Below are positions 396 to 15,594 of a stretch of DNA of 64,000 nucleotides, piece after piece. The notes under the pieces were generated by a model that was given only the letters and a program-made list of their open reading frames with translations, was not told the origin of the DNA and made no database searches. A program made the translations under genes and the position numbers. Each line of letters begins with the position of its first letter. Within the stretch, counting starts at the first letter, position 1. The DNA lies in assembly GCA_006438735.1 (NCBI GenBank), contig RCZF01000001.1:310001-374000 (forward strand). The letters run 5' to 3'. Origin of the DNA: Sphingomonas koreensis. GTDB taxonomy: Bacteria > Pseudomonadota > Alphaproteobacteria > Sphingomonadales > Sphingomonadaceae.

Positions 396-501
396 CAATG
401 CAGGAGCGGGGAGGGCGACGACCCGTGCCACATGCGCGAATAGCCTTGCAAAGCCGGATAATGCGCAGATGGTCGCGGCGACCAAGCGGGAGCCGTCTTC
501 G

Positions 502-2013
502 ATGTCCGATACCCGACACCCTCATGAAAGCGTTTCCACTGGTCTGGAAACGCTCGATGGGATTTTGGCGGGTGGCTACGCACGAAATCGCATCCACCTG
601 ATCGAAGGGCGGCCCGGATCCGGCAAGACGACGCTTGCCCTCCAGTTTCTTGCGGCGGGACGCGAAGCGGGTGACCGCGGAATTTACATCACGCTGTCCG
701 AAAGCCGCGAGGAGTTGCGGCACGTCGCCAAAACACACGGCCTCAACCTCGACGCCGTCGAAATCCGCGAGCTCGTTCCGCCTGAGTTGACACTGAATGC
801 CGAGATGGAACAGTCGGTCGTCTACGCCGCCGATCTCGAACTCAACGAGACGATCAATCTGGTAATGAAAGCGGTTGAGGAAGTCGATCCGACGCGCGTG
901 GTGTTCGACAGCCTGTCCGAAATTCGCCTGCTGACGCAGGAACCCCTGCGTTATCGTCGCCAAGTTCTGGCACTCAAGCACTTCTTTACTCAACGAGGGT
1001 GCACCGTCTTGTTTCTCGACGACGTAACTGCCGAAGACGACGATGTGAATTTGCATAGCCTGGTGCACGGGGTGATCCGGCTCGAACAGATCGCAGTCTC
1101 CTACGGCGGTGAACGCCGACGGCTTCGGGTTTTGAAGATGCGAGCACGCGGCTTCGCAGGTGGGTTTCACGACTACAAGATCCGCCAAGGCGGGTTGCGG
1201 ATATTTCCGCGCCTGGCGGCTGGTGACTTCGACCCTGCGTGGGAAGATAGCCCGCAAGCGAGCAGCGGACTGCCGGAACTCGACGCATTGATCGGCGGCG
1301 GGCTCGACCGCGGCACGAACACCTTGCTGGTGGGGCCGGCGGGCGCGGGCAAGTCGACGCTGGCGATGCAGTTCGTCATCAAAGGGGTCGAGCGCGGTGA
1401 AAAGGCCCTGTTCCTCAGTTTTGAGGAGACAGCGCGCAACTTTCAGCGTCGCAATGGGGGGATCGGCATCGACGTAAGCAAAGCGATCGAATCCGGAATG
1501 TTGATTTTCCGCACCGTCGATCCCGCCGAGCTAACGCCAGGCGAGATGACCAACGCCATCCGCGAGCATGTTGAAGCCGGCGTCTCCACGGTCGTCCTGG
1601 ATTCGATCACCGGATACCAGCATGCGATGCCAGAGGAAAAGTTTCTCCTGCTCCAAATGCATGAACTGCTGACCTATCTCAATCAGCATAATATTCTAAC
1701 ATTCCTGGTCCTCGCCCAAGGGGGAATGGTCGGTGAAACACGGTCGCCGTTCGCGATCACCTACCTCGCTGACACAGTCTTGTTACTTCGCTATTTCGAG
1801 GTCGCGGGGAGAGTGCGCAGAGCAATCTCCGTCATCAAGCGTCGCACAGGCGGCCACGAGATCACATTACGTGAATTCCGTATTCAAAACGACGGGATTC
1901 ATGTCGGCCGCGTGTTGTCCGACTTCAGTGGCATTCTCACCGGCAGCGCAAGCCAGCGCGGCGAGCACTCTGACCCGTTTGGCGAAGAACCAGCCCCGAT
2001 GCCCGGCAGGTGA
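502..2013 (+). CDS. KaiC-like double-domain RecA-type ATPase
   Basis: This protein of about 503 residues has two RecA/KaiC ATPase halves, each with its own P-loop (GRPGSGKT near the start of the first half, GPAGAGKS in the second) and Walker B-type strands (VVFDSLSE, VVLDSITG). The length matches cyanobacterial KaiC (about 519). At the place of the KaiC autophosphorylation pair Ser431-Thr432, the aligned residues here read Thr-Tyr (ITYLADT), so phosphorylation chemistry may differ. I chose ATG 502 because GGGAG lies nine bases upstream; ATG 469 in the same frame has no Shine-Dalgarno. The stop overlaps the GTG of the next kinase gene (GTGA), indicating translational coupling. There is no KaiA or KaiB nearby, so a true clock is unlikely; such KaiC proteins are usually signalling ATPases. 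Confidence 0.9.
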   Translation: MSDTRHPHESVSTGLETLDGILAGGYARNRIHLIEGRPGSGKTTLALQFLAAGREAGDRGIYITLSESREELRHVAKTHGLNLDAVEIRELVPPELTLNAEMEQSVVYAADLELNETINLVMKAVEEVDPTRVVFDSLSEIRLLTQEPLRYRRQVLALKHFFTQRGCTVLFLDDVTAEDDDVNLHSLVHGVIRLEQIAVSYGGERRRLRVLKMRARGFAGGFHDYKIRQGGLRIFPRLAAGDFDPAWEDSPQASSGLPELDALIGGGLDRGTNTLLVGPAGAGKSTLAMQFVIKGVERGEKALFLSFEETARNFQRRNGGIGIDVSKAIESGMLIFRTVDPAELTPGEMTNAIREHVEAGVSTVVLDSITGYQHAMPEEKFLLLQMHELLTYLNQHNILTFLVLAQGGMVGETRSPFAITYLADTVLLLRYFEVAGRVRRAISVIKRRTGGHEITLREFRIQNDGIHVGRVLSDFSGILTGSASQRGEHSDPFGEEPAPMPGR

Positions 2014-3296
2014 ACGAACCCGTCGCGATCTGCGCCCCGGCGGGGCGCGACGGAATGGTTCTGCTCGAAATATTGCGGTCGAATGACATTGCCGCCTGCT
2101 TGACGAAGCCGGAAGCGCTGGTTGGCGGCATCGAAGCCTCGGCCTACGCTGCGGTGCTCCTCACCGATGAAGCGACCAGGTTGATCGCGCCCGAAGCGAT
2201 GGAAACCGCACTGTCCGGTCAACCGCCCTGGTCGGATCTGCCATTCGTCGTGCTGACTTCTCGGGGCCGGCCGGGGCCAAGACTTGCCGGGATGCTGAAA
2301 ATATTAGGTAACGTCGTTCAGGTGGAACGGCCGGTCCATCGGGCCACCGTTGTCGACCTGGTTGGCAACGCACTTCGCGCACGCCGCCGCCAGATCGAAG
2401 CGGGGTGCTATCTCGAGGAGCGCGAGATCGCTGAGCGAAAGCTACAGGAATTTGCTGACGGTCTTGAACGTCAGATTGCCCACCGCACCCGCGCGCTCAC
2501 GGCGACAAGCCGACGTCTGTCTGTACAGATCAAGGAGCGCGTCGCGGCACAAGAGCGCATGAACCAGATGCAGTCCGAACTTATCCACGTTTCGCGGCTC
2601 AGTGCGATGGGCACGATGGCATCCACGCTCGCGCACGAACTCAACCAGCCGTTGACCGCGGTGTCGAATTACCTGCGCGGCAGTATTCGCCTGCTCGAAG
2701 CGAGCAATAATGTGGTCGATGCAAGCGTGCTGGGGGGATTGGAGAGCGCCGTCGCCAGCGCCCACCGCGCTGGGGAAATCGTCCGCCGCTTACGTGAATT
2801 CGTGTCACGCGGCACGGTCAATCGTAGGACAGAGAACGTGCCGAAACTGATCGATGAGGCCATCGCCGTTGGTCTGGTCGATGCGATGGCCTCGGGCGTG
2901 ACCTGCACGGTCGCGCTCGACCCTCGCGCGACGTCGATTGTCGTCGATCGGGTACAGATTCAGCAGGTGCTGATCAATCTGCTTCGCAATGCGGTCGAGG
3001 CGATGGGAACCACTAAGCGGCGCGAAATCACGATTCGAACTCGCTACCTCGGCAACGACTCCGTGGTCGAAGTGTCAGTAGCCGACACCGGCCCGGGGCT
3101 ACCGCCTCAGACGCTGGCGACCCTGTTTTCCCCCTTCACGTCAACAAAGGACGATGGCATGGGCATCGGACTGTCGATTTGCCGAACGATCGTAGAGGCA
3201 AATGGCGGAACGATCATGGGCGGAAACTGGCTTGGCGGTGGTGCGGAGTTCCGATTCACGGCGCCAATCGCTTCCGAAGCGTTAGCGGGCAGCTGA
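2010..3296 (+). CDS. sensor histidine kinase, FixL-type core with degenerate N-terminal receiver-like domain
   Basis: This is a cytoplasmic kinase of 428 residues starting with GTG at 2010, overlapping the KaiC-like gene by four bases. Residues 1 to about 125 have an alpha/beta receiver-like pattern without a clear phosphoacceptor Asp. A helical linker follows, rich in charged residues. The HisKA box is at His209 (LAHELNQPL) and the ATPase domain has an N box (NLLRNAVEA), G1 (DTGPGL) and G2 (GMGIGLSIC). HELNQPLT is typical of FixL/DctB-like kinases. It has no transmembrane segment and no obvious PAS domain, so its input is probably protein contact. The overlap with the KaiC-like gene makes that ATPase the likeliest partner (inference). 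No cognate response regulator is adjacent. Confidence 0.9.
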   Translation: MNEPVAICAPAGRDGMVLLEILRSNDIAACLTKPEALVGGIEASAYAAVLLTDEATRLIAPEAMETALSGQPPWSDLPFVVLTSRGRPGPRLAGMLKILGNVVQVERPVHRATVVDLVGNALRARRRQIEAGCYLEEREIAERKLQEFADGLERQIAHRTRALTATSRRLSVQIKERVAAQERMNQMQSELIHVSRLSAMGTMASTLAHELNQPLTAVSNYLRGSIRLLEASNNVVDASVLGGLESAVASAHRAGEIVRRLREFVSRGTVNRRTENVPKLIDEAIAVGLVDAMASGVTCTVALDPRATSIVVDRVQIQQVLINLLRNAVEAMGTTKRREITIRTRYLGNDSVVEVSVADTGPGLPPQTLATLFSPFTSTKDDGMGIGLSICRTIVEANGGTIMGGNWLGGGAEFRFTAPIASEALAGS

Positions 3297-3789
3297 TCAT
3301 GGCAGCATAGCGGCGACAAGGCCTACCTCGACAATGCATGGCGTTGCCCCTCGGGAGGGCGGCCACCCATCCATGCCCGCCGGCGAAAATCTGGCACTGG
3401 GCGTTGCCCTTGCTCACTTTGGCGATGACCGCTTGCCGATGGGCCTCTGCGCTCGCCCGCATCGAACGCGACCATCGCCAACCGCCATGACGATCGCGCC
3501 GAGCGCTGCAGCTCTTGAGGCCGGCGCCGGGACGACTCGCGGTTCTGCCAATCGGTAGCTAACGATTTCCGACCTTCGGCACGTTCAGCGTCCCCCAGTT
3601 GCAACGGGCTCTGACGCTGGAAATCGGCCGATGCCCATCGATCTGTTCTTCGGTCCAGACGCTGATGGCGAACGCCTGGCCGATTTGGCCCACCCGCTTA
3701 ACGCTTTGTTTACCTAAACTCTCCACTGTTTGACGCCTCGGCACAGGCGCGTTGTCGGCGGGTCGAGCGGTAAGAGTGCAAGGAGGACG
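3297..3789 (+). other. non-coding gap upstream of the cellulose operon
   Basis: I see no convincing gene in these 493 bases; the open frames on both strands have no recognisable protein features. The stretch must contain the bcs operon promoter. It ends with a strong AGGAGG at 3781-3786, which serves the first bcs gene. Confidence 0.5.
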
Positions 3790-4191
3790 ATGATGCGTCG
3801 TGATGCGCGCGATCTCCTGGACAAGCTGGGTCGGCGGGATGTGCGCTATCGACAGTTCGTCGACAGCACGACCGACATGGAATTGTGGCCGATCTTCGAG
3901 GCGCTGCTGCGCGACGATCGCGTTATCGGGGCCGATTGGCCTACGCAGGCCGAACCGCACGGCGGGCTGGTCGAGCGGCGGCCGGCCAGCGATGACGCCG
4001 TAAACTCTGCGGGGCGACCGATCGACCCCTTCCCGGACGCCCGCGAGGCGCCGGCCGCTGCGAGCAAACCGGCGGGATCGTCGTTGTTCGGCAACTATGA
4101 GCCAACCGGACGTCCAGTCATGCGCCCTTCGACCACGCCGCGGGCGCAAAGCATCCGCAATTTTCTTTCGCATCTCTCGGACGACGATTGA
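3790..4191 (+). CDS. BcsR/BcsP-like cellulose synthesis accessory protein
   Basis: This is a small protein of about 133 residues at the head of the cellulose operon. Its N-terminus (DARDLLDKLGRRDVRYRQF) resembles the short conserved helix of BcsR-type proteins (DL..L...LGL..V.Y..F). The rest is hydrophilic and rich in Pro, Ala and Arg, as in BcsP-like proteins. AGGAGG at 3781-3786 fixes the start at ATG 3790 or the adjacent ATG 3793, and not the earlier in-frame start at 3730. The stop overlaps the bcsQ start (TGATG). In enterobacteria BcsR works with BcsQ at the inner-membrane synthase; a similar role here is inferred from position. Similarity is weak, so the family name is tentative. Confidence 0.7.
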   Translation: MMRRDARDLLDKLGRRDVRYRQFVDSTTDMELWPIFEALLRDDRVIGADWPTQAEPHGGLVERRPASDDAVNSAGRPIDPFPDAREAPAAASKPAGSSLFGNYEPTGRPVMRPSTTPRAQSIRNFLSHLSDDD

Positions 4192-4919
4192 TGCCCCTGA
4201 TCCTGGTCCATTCGCCCAAGGGGGGCACCGGCTCGAGTTTCATCGCTGCGCAACTGGCGCTCGCCATGGCGGCGCATGGGCGCGATGTGACGGCGATCGA
4301 CTTCACTTATCAAGAGGGGCTCAAGCTTCACTTCGGGCTCGGACCGACGCAACAACTCGCTCAGTTCGGCGACACGCGTGTCGATCCCCTGGTGGTCGGC
4401 GGCGTGCGGCTGCTCGACGGCCATCATGCGTCGCGCCAGCAATGGTTCCAGGAGGCGGTCGGCTCCAGCCTGCTGCCGCTCGACGACGACCGCGTGATCA
4501 TCGCCGACGTGTCGGCGGGTAGTCGCGATCTGCGGGATATGCTGATGGAGGTGGCACAGTTGCATATCTGCACAATGATGCCGCGTCCGGCCTCGCTGGC
4601 GGCCTTGCCCAAAGTGATGCCCGGCGTGCCGACGATCGAGCTGGCCAAGACCGTGTTCGTGCTCAACCAGCTCGACGACCGCCGCAAACTGTCAAGGCAC
4701 TCGCATTTGTTCGTCCGCGAGCTGTTCGGCGATCAGTTGATTGGCGTCGTCCGCCGTGACGAAGCGGTCAATGAAGCTTTGGCGATGTTCCAGCCGATCG
4801 CCAAATATGCACCGTCGAGCGTCGTGCTGGCGGATTTCGAGGTGTTGACCGCTGCCGTTGAGCAGCGCTGCGGGCTCGTTCGCGTGGACGGTCGCCAATC
4901 GGCCGGAGCGGGATCGTGA
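4191..4919 (+). CDS. bcsQ: cellulose synthesis ParA/MinD-like ATPase BcsQ
   Basis: BcsQ (YhjQ) is a SIMIBI-class P-loop protein that places or stimulates the cellulose synthase. The 242-residue sequence opens with a deviant Walker A, HSPKGGTGSS, in which the usual second lysine-Thr (GKT) is Ser-Ser. BcsQ proteins commonly deviate here (E. coli has RGGVGTT), so this is a family trait and not decay. A switch-like strand, VIIADVSAG, and a VFVLNQLD segment follow. The start at ATG 4191 overlaps the preceding stop; a TTG directly upstream is less likely. The end overlaps the GTG of bcsA (GTGA). The operon position between the bcsR/P-like gene and bcsA supports the assignment. Confidence 0.9.
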   Translation: MPLILVHSPKGGTGSSFIAAQLALAMAAHGRDVTAIDFTYQEGLKLHFGLGPTQQLAQFGDTRVDPLVVGGVRLLDGHHASRQQWFQEAVGSSLLPLDDDRVIIADVSAGSRDLRDMLMEVAQLHICTMMPRPASLAALPKVMPGVPTIELAKTVFVLNQLDDRRKLSRHSHLFVRELFGDQLIGVVRRDEAVNEALAMFQPIAKYAPSSVVLADFEVLTAAVEQRCGLVRVDGRQSAGAGS

Positions 4920-7501
4920 ACGTGGGGCAGGCGATTGCGAACCCCCGACATGGCTTCACATTAGCCGGCAAGACGCTGACCGCGATCGGCCTAATGCTGG
5001 CGGCGGCGATCGCGATCGTCGTTGTGACGGTGCCGCTCGACTTACGCTCGCAATGGCTGTTCGGCGCGGTGACGATCGTTGGCGGCATGGCGATTGGTCG
5101 GCTGCGTCTCGAACGAACGACGCTGATCATCGCGATCCTGTCGCTCGTGGTGTCGACCCGGTATATCCTGTGGCGAACCTTCTACACGCTGGAATTCGAT
5201 TCAGCAGCAGGCGCGGTGCTCGGCATCGGGCTTTATGCCGCCGAGCTCTACGCATGGGTAATTCTCGCGCTCGGCGTGTTCCAGACCAGTTGGCCGCTGC
5301 ACCGCCCGGTCGTCGCGATGCGCGACGAACCCGAACGCTGGCCGACCATCGACGTCTACATTCCGACCTATAACGAGAGCCTCGAGATCGTCCGCAACAC
5401 CGTGTTCGCAGCGCTGGACATGGACTATCCGGCCGAGCGCTTCACCGTGTTCATCCTCGACGACGGCCGCCGCCCGGAATTCCGCACCTTCGCCCGCCAG
5501 ATCGGTTGCGGTTACCTGACCCGTGCCGACAACCTCCACGCCAAGGCCGGCAATCTCAACGCGGCAATGCGCCGAACCGATGGCGAGCTAATCGCGATCT
5601 TCGACTGCGACCATGTGCCGACGCGTGCTTTCCTGCAATTGACGGTGGTCTGGTTCCAGCGCGACCGCAAACTCGCGATGCTTCAGACGCCGCATCATTT
5701 CTATTCGCCCGATCCGGTGCAACGCAATCTTGGCGCGGTGCGCGACATGCCGGGCGAAGGTGACCTCTTCTATGGTCCCGTCCAAATGGGCAACGATCTG
5801 TGGAACGCAACTTTCTTTTGCGGCTCTTGCGCCCTCATCCGCCGCGACGCGCTGATGGAGACCAACGGGTTTGCCGGCGAGACGGTTACAGAAGACGCAC
5901 ACACCGCCTTGAAGCTCCAGCGCAAGGGTTGGAATACCGCCTATATTAACGCTCGTCTTTCCGCCGGGCTCGCCACCGAACGGCTGGTCCTCCACATCGG
6001 CCAGCGCATCCGCTGGGCCCGCGGGATGACGCAGATTTTCCGGATCGACAATCCGCTGCTCGGTCGCGGGCTGAAGCTGCCGCAGCGGCTTTGCTACCTC
6101 AATGCGATGCTGCACTTCCAGTTTCCGCTGCCGCGCATCGTGTTCCTCACCGCGCCGCTCGCCTACTTGATTTTCGGACAGAATATCATCCACGCGCCGG
6201 CGTCGCTCATCTTCGCCTATGCCCTGCCGCACCTCTATGTAGCGATGGCGTCGAGCGAGCGCGTGCAGGGCGGCACGCGGCGGCCGTTCTGGGGCGAGAT
6301 TTATGAAACTTTGCTCGCTTTCCATCTCGTCAAGCCGACCATCCTCACCCTGCTCAACCCGCGCAAGGGCACGTTCAACGTGACCGACAAAGGCGGCCTA
6401 CTCGATCAGACCTACATGGACCTGCACACCGTCCGGCCCCATCTTGTCACGATCGGGCTGCTGATCTTCGGCATCGTTTTCGGGATCATCAAATACTTCT
6501 TTCCGGCGATTTTCGAAGAGCAGCGCGACACGCTGTTGCTCAATGCCGGCTGGGCAACATTTAGCCTGGTGATCCTGCTCGCCGCCGTTTCCGTGGCCCG
6601 AGAGCGCCGGCAAACCCGCCAGCACATCCGGATCAATATCGCGGTGCCGGTGACGCTCTATTTCGACGACGGCTTCGTCGTCGATGCGACGACACAGGAC
6701 ATCTCGCTTGGCGGCCTCGCGGCCGATATGCCGCGCGGCTTTCAGCTCCAGGGACGCAATGTCACGGATATTTCCATGCCGATGGGCGACGAGAAGTTGA
6801 CCATTCCGGTTGATACGATCCGTATGGAATCGGGCACCGCCAACGTACGCTTCCAACCCCTCGAGCAAGATAGCGCGCGACTGCTCGTTCGCGCGGTGAT
6901 GGGTCGCGCCGATGCTTGGCAGCCGGCCAAACAGCTGCCGACCGTATCAGGGTGGCGGTCGCTGCGTGATATCGTGACGGTCGATCTCGTCACCTTGCGC
7001 CGTCTTGTTACCGCTGGTGGTCGCCGGCGTCAGCGCGTCAAGGCGCTGGCGGCGATGTCTACAGCCGTCGCAGGTGCAGCCGCCGCACTGGTCATGATGG
7101 CGATGCCGGTTTCGCCGGCCAGGGCCGCGACAGCGCCGACGCGGGTGGAAACCGCCGCGCAAGCACGCACGCCGGGCCTCCACCATGTGCGCCTGTCGCT
7201 GCGCGACCTGCAGATCAAGAGCGCCATTCGGCTACAGGGAACGCGGGGCGAAATCGGTGTGCCGTTCGGTATGCCGCGCAATCAGGTGGTCACCGGCGCG
7301 ACGATGACGCTGGATTTCGGCTATTCGCCGACGCTGCTCGGCGACCTAAGTCAGCTGGTCGTGCTCGTAAACGACGAGGTCGTTACGACGGTCGTGCTCG
7401 ATCCATCGAATAGCGGCGAGCACCAGGTCACCTTCACCGTCAACCCGGCCCTGTTCCTGCCCGGTGACAACCATCTGAACCTGCGCTTCCTGGGCCACTA
7501 G
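4916..7501 (+). CDS. bcsA: cellulose synthase catalytic subunit BcsA, fused to the N-terminus of BcsB and ended by an in-frame TAG
   Basis: This inner-membrane GT2 enzyme polymerises UDP-glucose into beta-1,4-glucan. It shows multiple TM helices, the catalytic Asp pair D182-D183, DCD at 230-232, TED at 325-327 and QRIRW at 363-367. A C-terminal PilZ domain carries the c-di-GMP motif RQHIR (568-572) and DISLGG. After PilZ an internal signal-peptide-like segment runs from about V708 to a likely cleavage after ARA (735-737). This is followed by about 120 residues of BcsB (cellulose-binding domain strands), so the gene is a BcsA::BcsB fusion like AcsAB of Komagataeibacter. Codon 862 is TAG, after which the same frame continues as BcsB. 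The BcsA moiety is intact and should be made; the fused BcsB part is truncated unless the TAG is an error or is read through. Confidence 0.92.
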   Translation: MNVGQAIANPRHGFTLAGKTLTAIGLMLAAAIAIVVVTVPLDLRSQWLFGAVTIVGGMAIGRLRLERTTLIIAILSLVVSTRYILWRTFYTLEFDSAAGAVLGIGLYAAELYAWVILALGVFQTSWPLHRPVVAMRDEPERWPTIDVYIPTYNESLEIVRNTVFAALDMDYPAERFTVFILDDGRRPEFRTFARQIGCGYLTRADNLHAKAGNLNAAMRRTDGELIAIFDCDHVPTRAFLQLTVVWFQRDRKLAMLQTPHHFYSPDPVQRNLGAVRDMPGEGDLFYGPVQMGNDLWNATFFCGSCALIRRDALMETNGFAGETVTEDAHTALKLQRKGWNTAYINARLSAGLATERLVLHIGQRIRWARGMTQIFRIDNPLLGRGLKLPQRLCYLNAMLHFQFPLPRIVFLTAPLAYLIFGQNIIHAPASLIFAYALPHLYVAMASSERVQGGTRRPFWGEIYETLLAFHLVKPTILTLLNPRKGTFNVTDKGGLLDQTYMDLHTVRPHLVTIGLLIFGIVFGIIKYFFPAIFEEQRDTLLLNAGWATFSLVILLAAVSVARERRQTRQHIRINIAVPVTLYFDDGFVVDATTQDISLGGLAADMPRGFQLQGRNVTDISMPMGDEKLTIPVDTIRMESGTANVRFQPLEQDSARLLVRAVMGRADAWQPAKQLPTVSGWRSLRDIVTVDLVTLRRLVTAGGRRRQRVKALAAMSTAVAGAAAALVMMAMPVSPARAATAPTRVETAAQARTPGLHHVRLSLRDLQIKSAIRLQGTRGEIGVPFGMPRNQVVTGATMTLDFGYSPTLLGDLSQLVVLVNDEVVTTVVLDPSNSGEHQVTFTVNPALFLPGDNHLNLRFLGH

Positions 7502-9295
7502 GCCCGCGATTGCGAAGACCCGTTTCATTCGTCGCTTTGGGCAAATATCTCCAACGTTCGGTCCTATCTCGATCTCACCGTACAGACGCTCCGCCTCTCG
7601 CCCGATCTCGCGCGACTGCCGACGCCGTTCTTCGACAAATACAGCAACCTTCCGCTGATCCTGCCATTTGTGTTCGGAAAAAACCCGTCCAATGGCGATC
7701 TCGAGGCGGCGGCGAGCACCGCATCGTGGTTCGGCGCCTTCGCGAGCTATCGCGGGTTCAGCTTCCCGCCGGTCTATGGCCGCATTCCCGAAGGCAATGC
7801 GATCGTCTTCCTGACGCCCGACGCGGCGGTCGCTGGCATCAATGTGCCGATTACCGGCCCCTCGCTCCAAGTGGTCGCCAATCCAGCCGATCCGGCCGGG
7901 CAATTGCTCCTCGTTATGGGCCGCACCGAAGCAGAGCTGAAGCAAGCGGCAGCCGCGCTCACCACAGGCAGGGGCGTCTATGGGGGCAGCAGAGTCTCGG
8001 TCGATGGTGCCCAGATCCCCCTGTTTGCACGCTATTCCGCGCCGCGATGGTTGCGCACCGACCGCCCGATTCGGCTTGGCGAGCTGGTCGATCCGCTGAC
8101 GCTCGAAGGTCGCGGCCTGCCGCCGGGTCCGCTCAGTGTGCCGTTCCGTGCGGCGCCTGATCTGTTCTTCTGGCCGCGCCAGGGCGGCATGCTCAACCTT
8201 AATTTTCGCTATCCCTCGGCGCCGTGGCTCGACCAGCGGGGATCGCGGCTCGATGTCTCGATCAACAACCAGTATCTCCGCACGCTGTCTCTCGCCGGCG
8301 GCAATTGGTGGCAACGGCTGATGGGCGACGACAGCGCGATCTCGCACACATCAACGGCGAACATCATTTTGCCGCGCTACAATCTGTTCGGCCAGAACCA
8401 GCTGACCTTCGACTACAACCTGATCCTCGCCGACAAGCGCCGCTGCAAAGGGACGTTGCCCGACAACGTCCGCGTCAATGTGCTGCCTGACAGTACCCTC
8501 GACCTGACCCACGCCTATCACGCGGTGCGGATGCCCGATTTGTCCACTTTCGCGGGTGCCGGCTTCCCTTTTACCGTCCGACCGGATCTCGGTGAGACCG
8601 CGGTGATTTTGGCCGGCAACCCAGACCCGTCGACGATCAAGGCGTTCCTCGATCTGATGGGCCGGATGGGCGATTCTACCGGGGCTCCGGCGGTGCGCGT
8701 CACTGTGACGCGCCAGTATGATCCCGACGCTTTGGCCGGCAAGGACGTCATCGTGATGGGTGGGCTGGGGATGGCACAGCTCTCGCTGTTTCGCGGCGCA
8801 CCCGTTTATTCCGACGGCAAAGGGCTGGTCGTCCGCCAGAGCTCGATCTTTCGCCGTGCCTTCGATGGCTACTCGATCCTGGACCGCACCGCGGCCGATC
8901 GCGCCAACGAATTTTTGTACAGCACCAATAGCTTCACCGGGCTGGTGAGCTTCCAGTCGCCCGATGACAGCGACCGGACTGTCGTCGCGTTGCTGTCGAG
9001 CGATCCTGCCGGATTGCCGACGATGGTCGATGCGTTCGCCAATGCCCAGACCAATGCGCAGGTCCAGGGTGCTCTGTCGGTCGCCAACGGCAACGGCATG
9101 CTCAGCTTCGCTGTCGGCAACAGTTACTGGATCGGTTCGCTGCCAGTCTGGATGAAGATCGCATACTGGTTCAGCAGCCGCCCGATCCTGATGGCGCTCG
9201 GCGCCTTCCTCGTCGCGGTGTTGCTGGCCGGTCCAGTCTACCTGCTGCTCAAGCGGCAGGAACGGCGGCGGCTGAGGGCAGTGGAGGAAACATGA
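7502..9295 (+). CDS. bcsB: BcsB, main part of the periplasmic c-di-GMP-regulated synthase subunit, in frame after a TAG
   Basis: BcsB is the periplasmic, membrane-anchored partner that guides the nascent glucan. From 7502 the frame is the same as bcsA and reads ARDCEDPFHSSLWANIS directly, a hallmark of BcsB just after FLGHY. No stop occurs until 9295. The first possible start codon is GTG at 7670, which would omit about 56 conserved residues, so this piece has no natural initiation signal. Later parts contain the repeated CBD/flavodoxin-like domains and a C-terminal TM helix (ILMALGAFLVAVLLAGPVYLLL) with a basic tail. It overlaps bcsC by four bases (ATGA). Read together with the upstream part, the fusion would be about 1,459 residues. 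Confidence 0.85.
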   Translation, partial: ARDCEDPFHSSLWANISNVRSYLDLTVQTLRLSPDLARLPTPFFDKYSNLPLILPFVFGKNPSNGDLEAAASTASWFGAFASYRGFSFPPVYGRIPEGNAIVFLTPDAAVAGINVPITGPSLQVVANPADPAGQLLLVMGRTEAELKQAAAALTTGRGVYGGSRVSVDGAQIPLFARYSAPRWLRTDRPIRLGELVDPLTLEGRGLPPGPLSVPFRAAPDLFFWPRQGGMLNLNFRYPSAPWLDQRGSRLDVSINNQYLRTLSLAGGNWWQRLMGDDSAISHTSTANIILPRYNLFGQNQLTFDYNLILADKRRCKGTLPDNVRVNVLPDSTLDLTHAYHAVRMPDLSTFAGAGFPFTVRPDLGETAVILAGNPDPSTIKAFLDLMGRMGDSTGAPAVRVTVTRQYDPDALAGKDVIVMGGLGMAQLSLFRGAPVYSDGKGLVVRQSSIFRRAFDGYSILDRTAADRANEFLYSTNSFTGLVSFQSPDDSDRTVVALLSSDPAGLPTMVDAFANAQTNAQVQGALSVANGNGMLSFAVGNSYWIGSLPVWMKIAYWFSSRPILMALGAFLVAVLLAGPVYLLLKRQERRRLRAVEET

Positions 9296-12200
9296 AACGC
9301 TCGCTCAAACGGCTGGGCCTGATCGCGCTGGTGCTGATGGCTTTGCCTTCCGCTGCGGTCGGTCAGAGCGTCGGTGTCGATGCGCTGCTCAACCAGGCAC
9401 GCTATTGGCAGGCGAAGGGGCGCCGCGATCTCGCCGGCCAGGCTTATCGTCGCGTGCTGCAGGTCGATCCCGGCAACGCCGCCGCGCGACAGGGATTGTC
9501 CGCCACCAACACGCGCGCGCCGGCGCCCCGACCCGTTCCGACGGCAAAGGCGCCGAATGCTCCGCGATCGGCCACGATTTCGGCACCGGTGTCGGCTCGG
9601 GTCGCCGTTCCTTCTCCAGTCGACCGTGGTGGTGATGCCCGCGCCGCTGGTTTCCGCGCCCTCGATTCCGGCGATCTCAACGCTGCGGCGCGCAGCTTTA
9701 ACGCTGCGCTGTCGGCGAGGCCACGTGACGCCGATGCCCTTGGCGGGCTGGGCCTGGTGCGGTTGCGCGGCAGCCAATTCGACGAGGCGCGCGATTTGCT
9801 GACCCGCGCCGCTAAGTTGGGCAACGCGAGCCGCTGGTCGCAAGCGCTGGCGGCGGCGAGTTTCTACGCCGATCTCGGCGACGCGCAGAAAGCCTATGAT
9901 GCCGGCAATTTGCCGGATGCTGAGGCAAAGGCGTCGCAGCTTGCCGGATCGAGCTTCACCGATCGCGCGCCCGCGCTACAATTGCTCGCGCAAATCTATC
10001 AGCAGGAAGGCCGTTATGGCGGCGCTGGCGATCTTTTCCGACAGGCTGCCGCGATCGGCGTCGGTAAGGGAGCCGGAGACCTGCAGGCGCAGGCTATCCA
10101 CGCTCAGGCGATGCAGGCCGCGGCGTCGGGCAACGCGGCCCTGGCCAATCAGTTATTCGGGCGCGCGATCGCTACGGATGGGGAGAATGCGTGGCTGCGC
10201 TACGACTACGCGCGGTTCCTGACGCAGCAGGGCAACCGCGCCGAGGCGAGCGCGCAAATCGCTGCGCTCTCGCAAACATCCGATCCACAGGCGTTATTCG
10301 CGGCCGCGTTGCTGAGCCGAGATGCCGGACAGCCACTGCAAGCCGAAGCGTTGCTCGCGCGCATTCCCGAGCGACAGCGCACGCCGGATATCGCCAATCT
10401 CCTGCTGACGTTGAAGGCCGATCAGGCGATCGATCGTGCCCGCACGATGCGCCGCCAAGGCCAGGTGGCGAGTGCCAGCGCTTCGCTTGAGCAACTCTCG
10501 CAGACACCAGGACTTTCTGCCGGCGCGCGCGCGCAACTTGCCGGCGCGTTGCTTGAGTTCGGTGATACCGGCGGCGCGGCGTCAATCGCACAGGCGATCC
10601 CACTCGACGAGATCAAGGACGTCGGCAACATCGATCCGCTGGTCCGCGTGCTTGCTGCCACCGGGCAAGACGCACAGGCCTATGCCGCGTTGCAGCGTGC
10701 CCAGACGCTGGCCGGCGGTGCCGCGACGGACCAACAGAAAGTCGCGCAACTCGGCGGCGTGCTCGTTGCTGGCCAGGCCGATCGACTGCGCCAAAGCGGA
10801 CAGCTCGCGCAAGCGTTCGATCTGCTTCAGAGGCAGTGGACGCAAGGTCCCGGGAGCCCGGACATCCTCGCCGCTCTCGGCCGGCTCTACCAGACAGGAC
10901 GACTGTATCCCCAGGCCCAGCAAACCTTTCAGCTGGTTCTGGCTCAGCAGCCCGGCAATGTTGGTGCACTGATCGGGGTTATGGATTCAGCAGCGTCGGC
11001 GGGCGATCGCGATACCGCCAAACGCGCCATGGACCAAGCGATCCGCGTCGCCCCCGCCAACCATGAAGTCTACCTTGCCGCAGCGCGTGTCGAACAGGCG
11101 CGCGGCGACGAGAAAGCCGCTTACCGCGACCTCCAGCGCGCCCGCGAACTCTATTTACATCAAAGCGGCGTGACAGCGGGCGGCTTCCTGGCCTCGAACC
11201 CGTTTGCCGCCGCCCAGGGCGGCAATCCATACAGCGCCGCCGCCACGCCGGCTGCGGTCAACCCCTTCGCGCTCGGCTCGACGCCTCCAGCGCCTTATGC
11301 GCCGCAGGGCGGCTATGCCGCGTCTCCCTATCCGGCGTCGTCTCCTTATCCAGCAGGGCCAGGCAGCTACACTGCGGCGAGCGGTGTCTATCCATCACAG
11401 GCGGGTTATCCGACGGGAACGGTGGGACTGCCGCCCGCAACCGGCATTGTGTCGCCGTCACAAGTGCCGGATGGGGCCAATACCCCGTATGCGGCTTCGG
11501 GACCGGCGGTGCCGAGCGATCCGGTGCTGGCCGGCATCCAGCGTGATATGCAAGCGCTTTCCCAGGATAGCGGCGTCCGGGTCGATGCTGACACCCAGTA
11601 TCGCCAACGATCGGGCGAGACCGGCTTGAGCCGCCTACGCGAGCTTGGCGGTAGCGCCACCGTCTCCACGGACATCGCCGGCGGCCGTATTTCCGGCAAA
11701 GCCGAGGCGGTGGTTGTCGATGCCGGTCGCCCAACGGGATCGGCGCTCGCCCGGTTCGGCCGAAATCCAACGTCGGAAGCCCAGGCGATTGTCGCGCAGC
11801 AGCCATCGCAACTCGCCCAGGCTGCAACGCAGCATGCCTCGGGCGTGGCGCTCTCGGCATCGTATGAGGGCAAGACGGTCCAGGCGGATGTCGGCACCAC
11901 CCCGCTCGGGTTCGAGAAGACCAACGTCGTCGGCGGCGTCAGCATCACGCCGCATCTCTCACCGCACAGCACGATCAAGCTTCACGCCGAACGCCGACCC
12001 GTAACCGATAGCGTCGTGTCGTACGCCGGTACGCGCGATCCGGTGACCGGCGCCCTGTGGGGGGCGGTAATCAAAAGCGGCGGCGGCGCATCCTATTCCT
12101 ATGACAAGGATGGAACCGGCTTCTACGCCGATGCCGCTTATCACCATTTCGATGGCTTCAATGTCGTCGCCAACAATCAGCTCGAGGCCAATGTTGGTGG

Positions 12201-12681
12201 CTATCTGCCGGTGATGCGCGATGCGAAGTCATCGCTAACACTCGGTGTCAACGCAAACTATCAAGCCTATGATAACAATCAAAACTTCTTCACGTTCGGC
12301 CAGGGCGGCTATTTCAGCCCACAAAGCTTCTTAAGTATCAGCTTTCCCGTCCGTTATCAGAGTCAGCAGCGCGGCCTATCGATCGATGCGAACGTAGCCC
12401 CCGGCTACCAGAGCTACGATCAACGCGCTTCCCCGCTCTACCCCACGGATCCGGCGGCCCAGGCCGAACTGGACTCGCTCAAAGGACGGGACAACGATGT
12501 GCGGTCTTTTTTCGATAGCATCAGCAAGACAGGGTTCGGCCTCGCCGGCAGCGGTTCGGCATACTACGCTGTTCGCGACGGCACACGGATCGGCGGTGAA
12601 GTCGATTACAACAGCTTTGGCGATTACAATGAATTCAAGGCGATGATCGGCATTCGTCATTCGCTGGGAGAAGGCCGATGA
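9292..12681 (+). CDS. bcsC: cellulose synthase outer-membrane export subunit BcsC
   Basis: BcsC carries the glucan across the periplasm and outer membrane. The 1,129 residues start with a signal peptide (MKRSLKRLGLIALVLMALPSA). Successive TPR-like helical repeats follow to about residue 620 (for example AYRRVLQVDPGNAAARQGL and LGGLGLVRLRGSQFDEARDLL). A low-complexity linker of Pro, Ala, Gly, Tyr and Ser runs from about 630 to 740 (SPYPASSPYPAGPGSYTA). The C-terminal third is the BcsC beta-barrel, with alternating aromatic strands and a terminal strand EFKAMIGIRHSLGEGR. Start and stop overlap the neighbours by four bases (ATGA on both sides), showing tight operon coupling. The length is close to that of typical BcsC. 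Confidence 0.95.
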   Translation: MKRSLKRLGLIALVLMALPSAAVGQSVGVDALLNQARYWQAKGRRDLAGQAYRRVLQVDPGNAAARQGLSATNTRAPAPRPVPTAKAPNAPRSATISAPVSARVAVPSPVDRGGDARAAGFRALDSGDLNAAARSFNAALSARPRDADALGGLGLVRLRGSQFDEARDLLTRAAKLGNASRWSQALAAASFYADLGDAQKAYDAGNLPDAEAKASQLAGSSFTDRAPALQLLAQIYQQEGRYGGAGDLFRQAAAIGVGKGAGDLQAQAIHAQAMQAAASGNAALANQLFGRAIATDGENAWLRYDYARFLTQQGNRAEASAQIAALSQTSDPQALFAAALLSRDAGQPLQAEALLARIPERQRTPDIANLLLTLKADQAIDRARTMRRQGQVASASASLEQLSQTPGLSAGARAQLAGALLEFGDTGGAASIAQAIPLDEIKDVGNIDPLVRVLAATGQDAQAYAALQRAQTLAGGAATDQQKVAQLGGVLVAGQADRLRQSGQLAQAFDLLQRQWTQGPGSPDILAALGRLYQTGRLYPQAQQTFQLVLAQQPGNVGALIGVMDSAASAGDRDTAKRAMDQAIRVAPANHEVYLAAARVEQARGDEKAAYRDLQRARELYLHQSGVTAGGFLASNPFAAAQGGNPYSAAATPAAVNPFALGSTPPAPYAPQGGYAASPYPASSPYPAGPGSYTAASGVYPSQAGYPTGTVGLPPATGIVSPSQVPDGANTPYAASGPAVPSDPVLAGIQRDMQALSQDSGVRVDADTQYRQRSGETGLSRLRELGGSATVSTDIAGGRISGKAEAVVVDAGRPTGSALARFGRNPTSEAQAIVAQQPSQLAQAATQHASGVALSASYEGKTVQADVGTTPLGFEKTNVVGGVSITPHLSPHSTIKLHAERRPVTDSVVSYAGTRDPVTGALWGAVIKSGGGASYSYDKDGTGFYADAAYHHFDGFNVVANNQLEANVGGYLPVMRDAKSSLTLGVNANYQAYDNNQNFFTFGQGGYFSPQSFLSISFPVRYQSQQRGLSIDANVAPGYQSYDQRASPLYPTDPAAQAELDSLKGRDNDVRSFFDSISKTGFGLAGSGSAYYAVRDGTRIGGEVDYNSFGDYNEFKAMIGIRHSLGEGR

Positions 12682-13154
12682 ACCTGCTTGCTACCCGTGC
12701 GGCGCTTAACCGCGCGAGCACACCCAAGCATTTTGCGCCCGCCAGTACATGGCCGCTACTCGCGCGCTTGATCGGTGAGGAAGTCCTCGCCACGGCCAGC
12801 GATGGTCAGCGGACCGGCTTTTTCGTCGCGGTCGGCCGACGGGTCGCCGCCTTGGCGCCGATGGACGGGCTCGATGACATCGAGGCCATCGTCGAGACGA
12901 TGAATCATGTCTGGGCGATACTTGGCTTTGGCCGGGCGTCGATCGAGCTGGACGATGACGGAATCGACATTATCCATGACGGCGTGCCGCGCGCCACTGA
13001 CGAAGCCCCGGACGAGCGCTGGGGACAAGCAAGTGCGGCGCTGCTCGAAGGCGCCTATGATTCCTGGTTCCGGGGGCTCGGGAGCAAGACAAATCTGCGT
13101 ACCTGGGTACGGCGTCAGGACGGCGGGACGGTCGAACTTCGTCATGGAATGTGA
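12678..13154 (+). CDS. bcsD: cellulose synthase subunit BcsD
   Basis: BcsD (AcsD) forms a periplasmic or cytoskeletal ring-like octamer in Komagataeibacter that aligns glucan chains for crystallisation. The 158 residues match the family length (about 156). Recognisable segments are the central helix-strand AIVETMNHVWAILGFGRASIEL, the DGIDIIHDGVP strand and the LLEGAYDSWFRGLGS motif near the C-terminus. It starts within the end of bcsC (ATGA) and overlaps bcsZ by eleven bases. Its presence marks this as a bcsD-containing (type I) cellulose operon. Confidence 0.9.
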   Translation: MNLLATRAALNRASTPKHFAPASTWPLLARLIGEEVLATASDGQRTGFFVAVGRRVAALAPMDGLDDIEAIVETMNHVWAILGFGRASIELDDDGIDIIHDGVPRATDEAPDERWGQASAALLEGAYDSWFRGLGSKTNLRTWVRRQDGGTVELRHGM

Positions 13155-14163
13155 CCGGCGGGGGCTGCTTGCCACCACCGCTTTGCTCTGCCTCGTCGGG
13201 TGCGCGCCACCAGGAGGAAAAGCGGTGGCGGCAAGCCCTACGCGGGACGGCTGGGCACGGTTCAAAGCTCAGTTCATTCAGCCCGACGGGCGCGTCGTCG
13301 ATATCGGCAATAACGGCATCAGCCATAGCGAAGGCCAGGGCTATGCCCTGCTGCTGGCGACGACCAACGACGATCGTGCGACATTCGATCGCGTACTCGG
13401 TTGGACCGAACGGACGCTAGCGCGAACCGACGTCGCGCTTTTTTCATGGCGCTACACGCCCGGAGCAGCGCAGCCGGTCGATGATCCCAACAACGCGACC
13501 GATGGCGATACGCTGATCGCCTGGGCGTTGCTGCGTGCGGCCGCGATGTGGCACAGGCCGGCTTATGCCGAACGTTCGACTGCGATCCGCGGAGCGATCC
13601 GCGCCGAGCTGGTGAGCGAGCGGTTCGGCAAATCTTGGCTGATGCCGGGGATGTCCGGCTTCGACACGCCGGCGGTGCTCGTGCTCAATCCTTCATACTA
13701 CATCTGGCCCGCGCTCGATGCCTTCGCCGGCGCCGATGGGCAGAGCGCGTGGCAACCGGTGATCGATAGCGGCCTCGCGCTTTTGACAGGCGGCAAGTTT
13801 GGAAAACACCGTTTGCCGAGCGACTGGATCGATGTTCGGGGAGATGCCAGCTTCGTTCCCGCGCAAGGCCGGCCGCCGCTCTTCGGTTTCGACGCGGTGC
13901 GCGTGCCGCTCTATCTCATGCTGTCGGGGCGCACCGCGCCGGCCGCGGATATTGCCCGATATTGGCAGTCGCTGGTCGCGGCCAATCAAGCGCTCCCCGC
14001 TTGGGTTGATGTCGAGAGCGGTATCTTCGCGCCTTATTCGCTATCCACCGGTGCGCAGGCGATTGCCGAGCGGCTTCTTGGCAACACGGCGCTGCCTGAC
14101 GCCCTCGATCTGGACTATTATTCCAGCGTTCTCGGCCTGATGACGAAGCTCCAAAATGTATGA
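13144..14163 (+). CDS. bcsZ: endo-beta-1,4-glucanase BcsZ (glycoside hydrolase family 8), predicted lipoprotein
   Basis: BcsZ is the periplasmic cellulase that edits nascent cellulose. The 339 residues begin at ATG 13144 inside the end of bcsD; an earlier in-frame ATG at 12907 lies deep in bcsD and is rejected. A lipobox LVGC at residues 17-20 predicts a lipid-anchored protein, whereas many BcsZ are soluble. Family-8 catalytic features are present: Glu63 in HSEGQGYALLLA (general acid) and Asp120 in NNATDGDTLIAWALL (signature Asp), plus the conserved GLMTKL C-terminus. This is the last gene of the operon; a region of relics follows. Confidence 0.95.
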   Translation: MECDRRGLLATTALLCLVGCAPPGGKAVAASPTRDGWARFKAQFIQPDGRVVDIGNNGISHSEGQGYALLLATTNDDRATFDRVLGWTERTLARTDVALFSWRYTPGAAQPVDDPNNATDGDTLIAWALLRAAAMWHRPAYAERSTAIRGAIRAELVSERFGKSWLMPGMSGFDTPAVLVLNPSYYIWPALDAFAGADGQSAWQPVIDSGLALLTGGKFGKHRLPSDWIDVRGDASFVPAQGRPPLFGFDAVRVPLYLMLSGRTAPAADIARYWQSLVAANQALPAWVDVESGIFAPYSLSTGAQAIAERLLGNTALPDALDLDYYSSVLGLMTKLQNV

Positions 14164-14428: not shown

Positions 14429-14585
14429 CTAGGGTCAGGACCCATTGATCTGAGAGGCGCGATCTGAGTCAGGCGCCGCGAGGAGACCGCTCATGAGCAA
14501 CCTGTATTTGCTGACGGACGAGCAGATGGCGCGGCTTCAGCCGTATTTCCCCAGGAGCCATGGGAAGCCAAGGGTTGAGGTCTGT
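14429..14585 (+). mobile_element. remnant of an IS5-family (IS427-like) insertion sequence, left end and transposase N-terminus
   Basis: At 14493 a frame starts MSNLYLLTDEQMARLQPYF and goes on to PRSHGKPRV, which is the standard N-terminus of IS5/IS427-group transposases in sphingomonads. Similarity stops after about 30 residues, where an unrelated sequence begins. Upstream, CTAGGGTCAGGACCCATTGA (14429-14448) looks like the IS end abutting a CTAG target. An 18-of-20 match to this motif occurs at 40877-40896. No catalytic DDE part remains, so the element is dead. Confidence 0.7.
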
Positions 14586-14753
14586 CGGCTCGTATGCGGC
14601 AAAATCGCTGCAGCGAAGAGTGCCAACCAGAGCGCGCGTTCCGTCTGCGGCTCTATCCGCGACACGCCAATTCATCCAAGCCAACAAACACCGCCGCCTC
14701 TTAGACGATGCGGCGCTTGGACACGACGGCGTTGCCGGAAAGCTATTGTCGGG

Positions 14754-15060
14754 TCAGCCCAGAGCGACGCTCTTCATGATCACCTGGTCGTCGGCGATCC
14801 CGGCATGCTCACGAACGACGGGGGATTGCATGATGCCCTCGCTATTGATCACCGTGCGGACCCCGCGCGACCAGGCAGCGTTGAAGAACGCGGTCGCGAC
14901 GCGCTGCTGTCGAACGCGCTGTCGTCGCTCCCGGCAAGGACGCGGTCATAAGTGATGATGATGCAGACCGGCGCGTCGAATTGGCGAAAGCCGCGCAATA
15001 CCTAGTCCTGCCGCGCGTCCTTGTCGTCACGCGCGATGCCCATAGCCGCGAACAGCTGTT
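14754..15060 (-). pseudogene. decayed nitroreductase, C-terminal half
   Basis: On the minus strand, pieces of a nitroreductase-family protein can be read in order. They are an LFAAMGIARDDKDARQ helix, a TAG (15002-15004) where a Trp is usual, then VLRGFRQFDAPVCIIITYDR. A one-base frameshift near 14905 follows, then NAAWSRGVRTVINSEGIMQ and SPVVREHAGIADDQVIMKSVALG up to a normal stop at 14754. Nitroreductases are FMN enzymes that reduce nitro groups or quinones with NAD(P)H. At least one nonsense change and one frameshift are visible, so the gene is inactive. Fragments of the upstream half may extend towards 15130. Confidence 0.75.
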
Positions 15061-15594
15061 ATGCTACGCCGATCTGCCGCTCGCGGTGCGGCCCGGCAGA
15101 TGTCTCGCCGGTCCGGAACTCACGCGATTGCGGTACGCCTGCGACTGTTCTTCTCGCGATCACCGTGTCGGTTGGCGATCCGGGGGGAAGGACCGCCAAC
15201 CGAGGCTTGTTGAGCCATCCTGGGGGAGGACAGCTCATCAGCGGCGACTGGTTTCGCTGCAAAGAGCTTTCACACGACGGTGATGACCGCGGCTTTACCA
15301 AGCGGGACCGTGGTTCTACGGTATCGAGCGCGAACCGGGCGCTAAGCACGATTAAGAGCGTGATCCGCAGAGGGTTGGCGCGGCTTAAAAATCGGTTCGA
15401 ATCGATCGAGTTGCCGCCGCCCGGAAGGTCGAACGGTGAATCACTATGCTATGCGCCCAAGCCGTAGTCAGCTTGGAGATGGCACGTGTCGCTCGCTCGC
15501 GAGCGCCGCTCTTGTTGGCCGACGGCGCATTCGCCGCTCAGCGGGCGAGCGGGACGTTCGACAATTGGATTTCGCGCTCAAGAGGCTGTCGACT
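15061..15594. other. degenerate or non-coding stretch
   Basis: I recognise no gene here. Open frames on both strands have no family-like motifs. The left edge may hold the worn 5' part of the nitroreductase relic (REFRTGE on the minus strand near 15110-15130). Confidence 0.4.

Follow-up and report, generated by a model that had tools for sequence, protein, structure and literature searches.

What does a stop codon mean in the middle of a fused cellulose synthase gene whose frame stays open on either side of it? The window (the whole stretch of 64,000 nucleotides of Sphingomonas koreensis DNA analysed here) carries a TAG at 7499–7501 within bcsAB, for which the initial annotation had put forward three explanations: a single change abolishing cellulose production, amber readthrough, or a wrong base. 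The first is the best supported as a predicted phenotype, with a wrong base keeping a minor share of the probability and readthrough finding no support. Our preferred reading, to which we give a probability of about 0.83, is that a real and recent change of one base turned a conserved Tyr codon of the fused gene into a nonsense codon, a change that inactivates the only BcsB found and is predicted to leave the strain cellulose-negative.

An in-frame TAG at a conserved tyrosine codon

The window represents positions 310001–374000 of contig 1 in a genome of 3.6 Mb (9 contigs, stated completeness 99.98%), and its nearest named relatives by BcsB belong to Sphingomonas, Sphingobium and Novosphingobium. 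The bcs operon lies on the forward strand and begins with a small ORF of 153 aa (3730–4191) that lacks a family match and overlaps the gene of a bcsQ-like ATPase of the BcsQ/MinD family (4188–4919; PF06564, E = 1.1e-15; TIGR03371 at 104 bits, below its cut-off of 158 bits). The following frame (4916–7501) encodes 861 aa of BcsA and the initial part of BcsB before the premature TAG, with a CelA match above cut-off at residues 19–696 (TIGR03030), a PilZ domain at 566–662 and BcsB profile positions 4–107; it also contains FDCDH, TEDAH and QRIRW, presumably with the roles generally ascribed to these motifs. The remainder of bcsB follows in the unchanged frame (7502–9295, 597 codons; BcsB profile 110–606, E = 2.5e-161). 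The ATG of bcsC at 9292 overlaps the bcsAB stop (ATGA) and is preceded by GGAGG, and the gene (9292–12681) encodes TPR repeats and an outer-membrane barrel (PF05420, E = 2.8e-104). It is followed by bcsD (12678–13154; PF03500, E = 1.2e-11) and by the GH8 endoglucanase gene bcsZ (12907–14163; PF01270 at residues 106–415, E = 9.6e-63), the real start of which probably lies 3' of the listed ATG. Save for the TAG, this is a fused-BcsAB operon with BcsA catalytic, PilZ and BcsB domains in one frame, accompanied by bcsC, bcsD and bcsZ. The description of the rest of the operon as intact stands when bcsQ, bcsA, bcsC, bcsD and bcsZ are judged by reading frame and Pfam match, but less so for NCBIfam, in which BcsQ, BcsC and BcsZ all score under their curated thresholds and BcsD is not matched. 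In the flanking DNA, KaiC-like ATPase and histidine kinase genes lie upstream at 469–3296. Directly downstream of bcsZ, a transposase-like remnant was recognized by eye at 14493–15144, with no Pfam match; its 14596–15144 portion has an 88% copy at 260600–261150 of contig 1.

Re-examination of the interrupted frame bore out most of the initial annotation. The TAG stands in the frame opened by GTG 4916, which, when read through to 9295, comprises 1459 codons closed by TGA 9293–9295, the length given earlier for a full-length BcsA::BcsB; the TAG is codon 862. Its two parts are joined without a frameshift, as had been claimed, and the stop falls within one BcsB domain, at about position 108 of the 606 in the profile. 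The stretch of 56 codons lacking a start after the TAG was likewise recovered, the first in-frame ATG, GTG or TTG being the 57th codon, GTG 7670, with no Shine-Dalgarno-like sequence before it. The figure of 120 BcsB residues preceding the stop holds only approximately, as Pfam starts BcsB at residue 758 and the NCBIfam models at 708–759.

The residue replaced by the stop is strictly conserved. A tblastn comparison covered 94 loci, all spanning the TAG site, two of which are the window's own place and carry TAG. The other 92 (74 loci from named records and 18 from genomes of the same genus, with L145–L151 outside the count) all encode Tyr in this column, as TAC in 58 and TAT in 34, several being one place fetched twice. 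Tyr is also found in all 55 aligned homologues, and nearly all loci show GHY(A/T)RDCEDP, in agreement with the context FLGHY-ARDCEDP proposed at the outset. As expected of a recent nonsense allele, intact homologues thus have a sense codon where the window has a stop. Among single-base substitutions in bcsAB, 2.4% create a stop, and TAG accounts for 187 of the 321, making it the likeliest outcome of one random nonsense hit.

Age of the stop and interrupted copies in relatives

The sequence beyond the TAG is coding-like and free of further lesions, again as expected of a recent nonsense allele: the bcsB frame contains no second stop and is open to 9293, and the GC content at third codon positions is 0.789 upstream of the TAG and 0.781 downstream. 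Substitutions were compared in an alignment of 55 relatives, each selected from 59 candidates for a frame open over 1440 codons or more, with two interrupted loci (L027 and L038) and two short records (L034 and L077) omitted. Of the otherwise invariant columns, the window departs from 2 of 109 after the TAG and 4 of 228 in BcsA, and from none of the 21 in the part of BcsB that precedes the TAG; no excess thus follows the TAG relative to BcsA (Fisher p = 1). The window nevertheless deviates more than most relatives, with higher values in only 1 of 55 after the TAG and 2 of 55 in BcsA (median 0). We read this deviation as reflecting distance rather than decay, since it is similar on both sides of the TAG and no sequence in the set is closely related to the window. 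Three columns present in >90% of sequences are also missing from the window (residues 527 and 732), both in frame and before the TAG. An old pseudogene is unlikely, since the post-TAG sequence is undecayed.

How recent the change is can be bounded only loosely. At a stop-making rate of 2.4%, the absence of a second stop would be compatible with up to about 120 neutral substitutions, a weak bound on age; no relative found exceeds about 64% identity in BcsB, which makes dating coarse and a recent relaxation unmeasurable. The qualification "very recent" therefore agrees with the absence of decay but is dated only coarsely, and the same absence is equally expected under a wrong base or readthrough. 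A BcsB match occurs in 22 of 295 genomes of the genus, the window's own included; the best of the other matches reaches 62% identity across the full length of the BcsB query. No same-species isolate was seen among the 295 genus genomes or the 74 named loci, a scan of named records that may omit those very near the window. The four best rpoB matches (G231, G295, G197 and G073; 89–90%), from a comparison that scored all but 70 of the 295 genomes and may have missed a nearer one, are absent from the 22 BcsB-bearing genomes and are thus useless for dating the change; these four share the DNA downstream of the bcs operon only in part.

Interrupted bcsAB copies occur in several relatives. Three of the 61 named loci that are not betaproteobacterial (of 74) are interrupted: L027 from Sphingobium quisquiliarum P25, with an in-frame TGA at 5802–5804 where three relatives compared have Trp, and L038 and L080, with frame breaks. 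Within the genus, where 22 genomes match BcsB, the interrupted copies are those of the window, G161 and G270. L038 and G161 are probably the same genome, as are L080 and G270, because their identities to the query are equal; L038 and L080 also have stops at query residue 9, which precede the likely start and were left uncounted. The frame breaks were seen in Sphingomonas sp. H160509 (L038, L017, L020 and probably G161) and, together with a second partial copy, in Sphingomonas sp. Leaf208 (L080, L094, L148–L151 and probably G270). All these copies (L027, L038, L080, G161 and G270) may themselves be assembly errors, and the G161 genome is only 80% complete. Separately, a BcsA-like gene of the same genus (L129:1135–3558, genome G032), 30% identical to the window's, has in-frame TAGs at 2116 and 2467 and is probably decaying; an adjacent ORF is HlyD-like by eye.

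Alternative accounts of the TAG

The alternative that survives best is a wrong assembly base in an intact gene, an account we hold to be unlikely but worth keeping in view. It is consistent with a TAG one substitution away from the Tyr codons and with a bcs operon otherwise open. The quality of the assembly (99.98% complete, 9 contigs) argues against it, as do rpoB and prfA without internal stops and a full-length neighbouring AcrB, the only genes outside the bcs operon inspected for errors, and genuine bcs losses are well documented.

Far less credible is amber readthrough, by which a suppressor tRNA or programmed decoding of the TAG would yield some full-length BcsAB. The intact and conserved frame after the TAG would suit it, but neither the tRNAs, the release factor, conservation nor the sequence context lends it support. 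A covariance-model search (E ≤ 0.001) recovered 43 tRNA genes, all read by ARAGORN, and none of the 43 has a CUA anticodon; the list is probably incomplete, as the expected Ile-GAT and Ala-TGC tRNAs are missing, perhaps reflecting gaps at rRNA operons. At L119, an odd tmRNA was additionally called by ARAGORN across tRNA-Ala(CGC). The RF1 gene prfA scores over its cut-off and contains no internal stop, and reassignment of TAG as a sense codon, for which RF1 should be absent or broken, is unsupported on this ground. Programmed readthrough would be expected to conserve the TAG, yet the 92 other loci have no stop at the site. Over the 100 bases that follow the TAG (7502–7601) no stimulating RNA structure is evident, the segment folding no more stably than its shuffled versions (z 0.67; 148 of 200 shuffles at least as stable). 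The six operon genes checked end in TGA and so are uninformative on TAG use, and we found no literature on amber readthrough of bcsB or cellulose synthase. A corollary, that low-level full-length BcsAB makes the TAG a throttle on cellulose synthesis and not an off switch, is equally hard to credit.

Least probable of all is a gene on its way to encoding two functional proteins, one being BcsA plus a stub of BcsB and the other a stand-alone BcsB: in nine betaproteobacterial loci (L082–L085, L087–L090 and L092) BcsB does occupy an ORF of its own size (755–858 aa), but the break here lies inside the BcsB domain, the distance to GTG 7670 and its missing Shine-Dalgarno sequence led us to reject an independent BcsB start 3' of the TAG, and a product from that codon would probably have no signal sequence, judged by eye.

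Predicted consequences and comparison with known systems

Under the preferred reading of a nonsense mutation, ribosomes would terminate at codon 862 and release an 861-residue product, BcsA with a BcsB stub, that ends short of the C-terminal BcsB membrane helix (residues 1422–1446, 9179–9253; hydrophobicity judged by eye). The accessible portions of two reports describe the C-terminal BcsB membrane anchor as the part BcsA requires for catalysis (PMC6740014, PMC11470070), the former adding that it comes with an amphipathic helix. BcsA would accordingly be expected to be inactive in its absence. The genome holds a single BcsB match, and the BcsA query likewise has only one hit at E ≤ 0.001, so no backup for either was found. 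Expression of bcsC, bcsD and bcsZ might in addition be lowered by polarity, though bcsC has its own GGAGG, and the strain is predicted not to produce cellulose. One plausible origin of the mutation is that shaken culture in the laboratory favoured cells that do not aggregate. An annotation based on gene content would call this strain cellulose-positive, whereas the TAG predicts the opposite.

Loss of bcs function of this type is already known from E. coli K-12, Komagataeibacter and Zymomonas, the last a relative within the Sphingomonadales. In E. coli K-12, one substitution turns TTG into TAG in bcsQ, and K-12 derivatives make no cellulose according to the excerpted source (PMC5944007). The likeness to the window is a single substitution giving TAG in a bcs operon gene; the difference is that K-12 is hit in bcsQ with an effect proven by experiment, whereas the window is hit in bcsB with an effect that is predicted. 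Agitated Komagataeibacter (K. intermedius) gained TAT>TAA in bcsA and CAG>TAG in bcsC, and in the part of that report available the mutants were tracked as they arose in culture, up to 15–36% of the population (PMC13068021), whereas the window shows an end state only. Zymomonas mobilis ZM4 shares with the window a one-base break in a synthase gene, in its case a Sanger-confirmed insertion in a T run of bcsA, with bcsA and bcsB as separate genes, in contrast to a TAG in a fused bcsAB. ZM4 still flocculates in certain conditions, as the available text of the study describes (PMC8088579), indicating that a broken bcs gene need not equal zero cellulose; besides this study, we found no literature on bcs operon pseudogenes in Sphingomonas. 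Fused bcsAB genes are described for some Komagataeibacter strains in the portion of the source at hand (PMC6740014), and, as in the 55 aligned relatives, BcsA and BcsB there form one frame, from which the window's gene differs by its TAG interruption. Set beside these systems, the locus indicates no new mechanism and would stand as one more case of the recurrent loss of bcs function.
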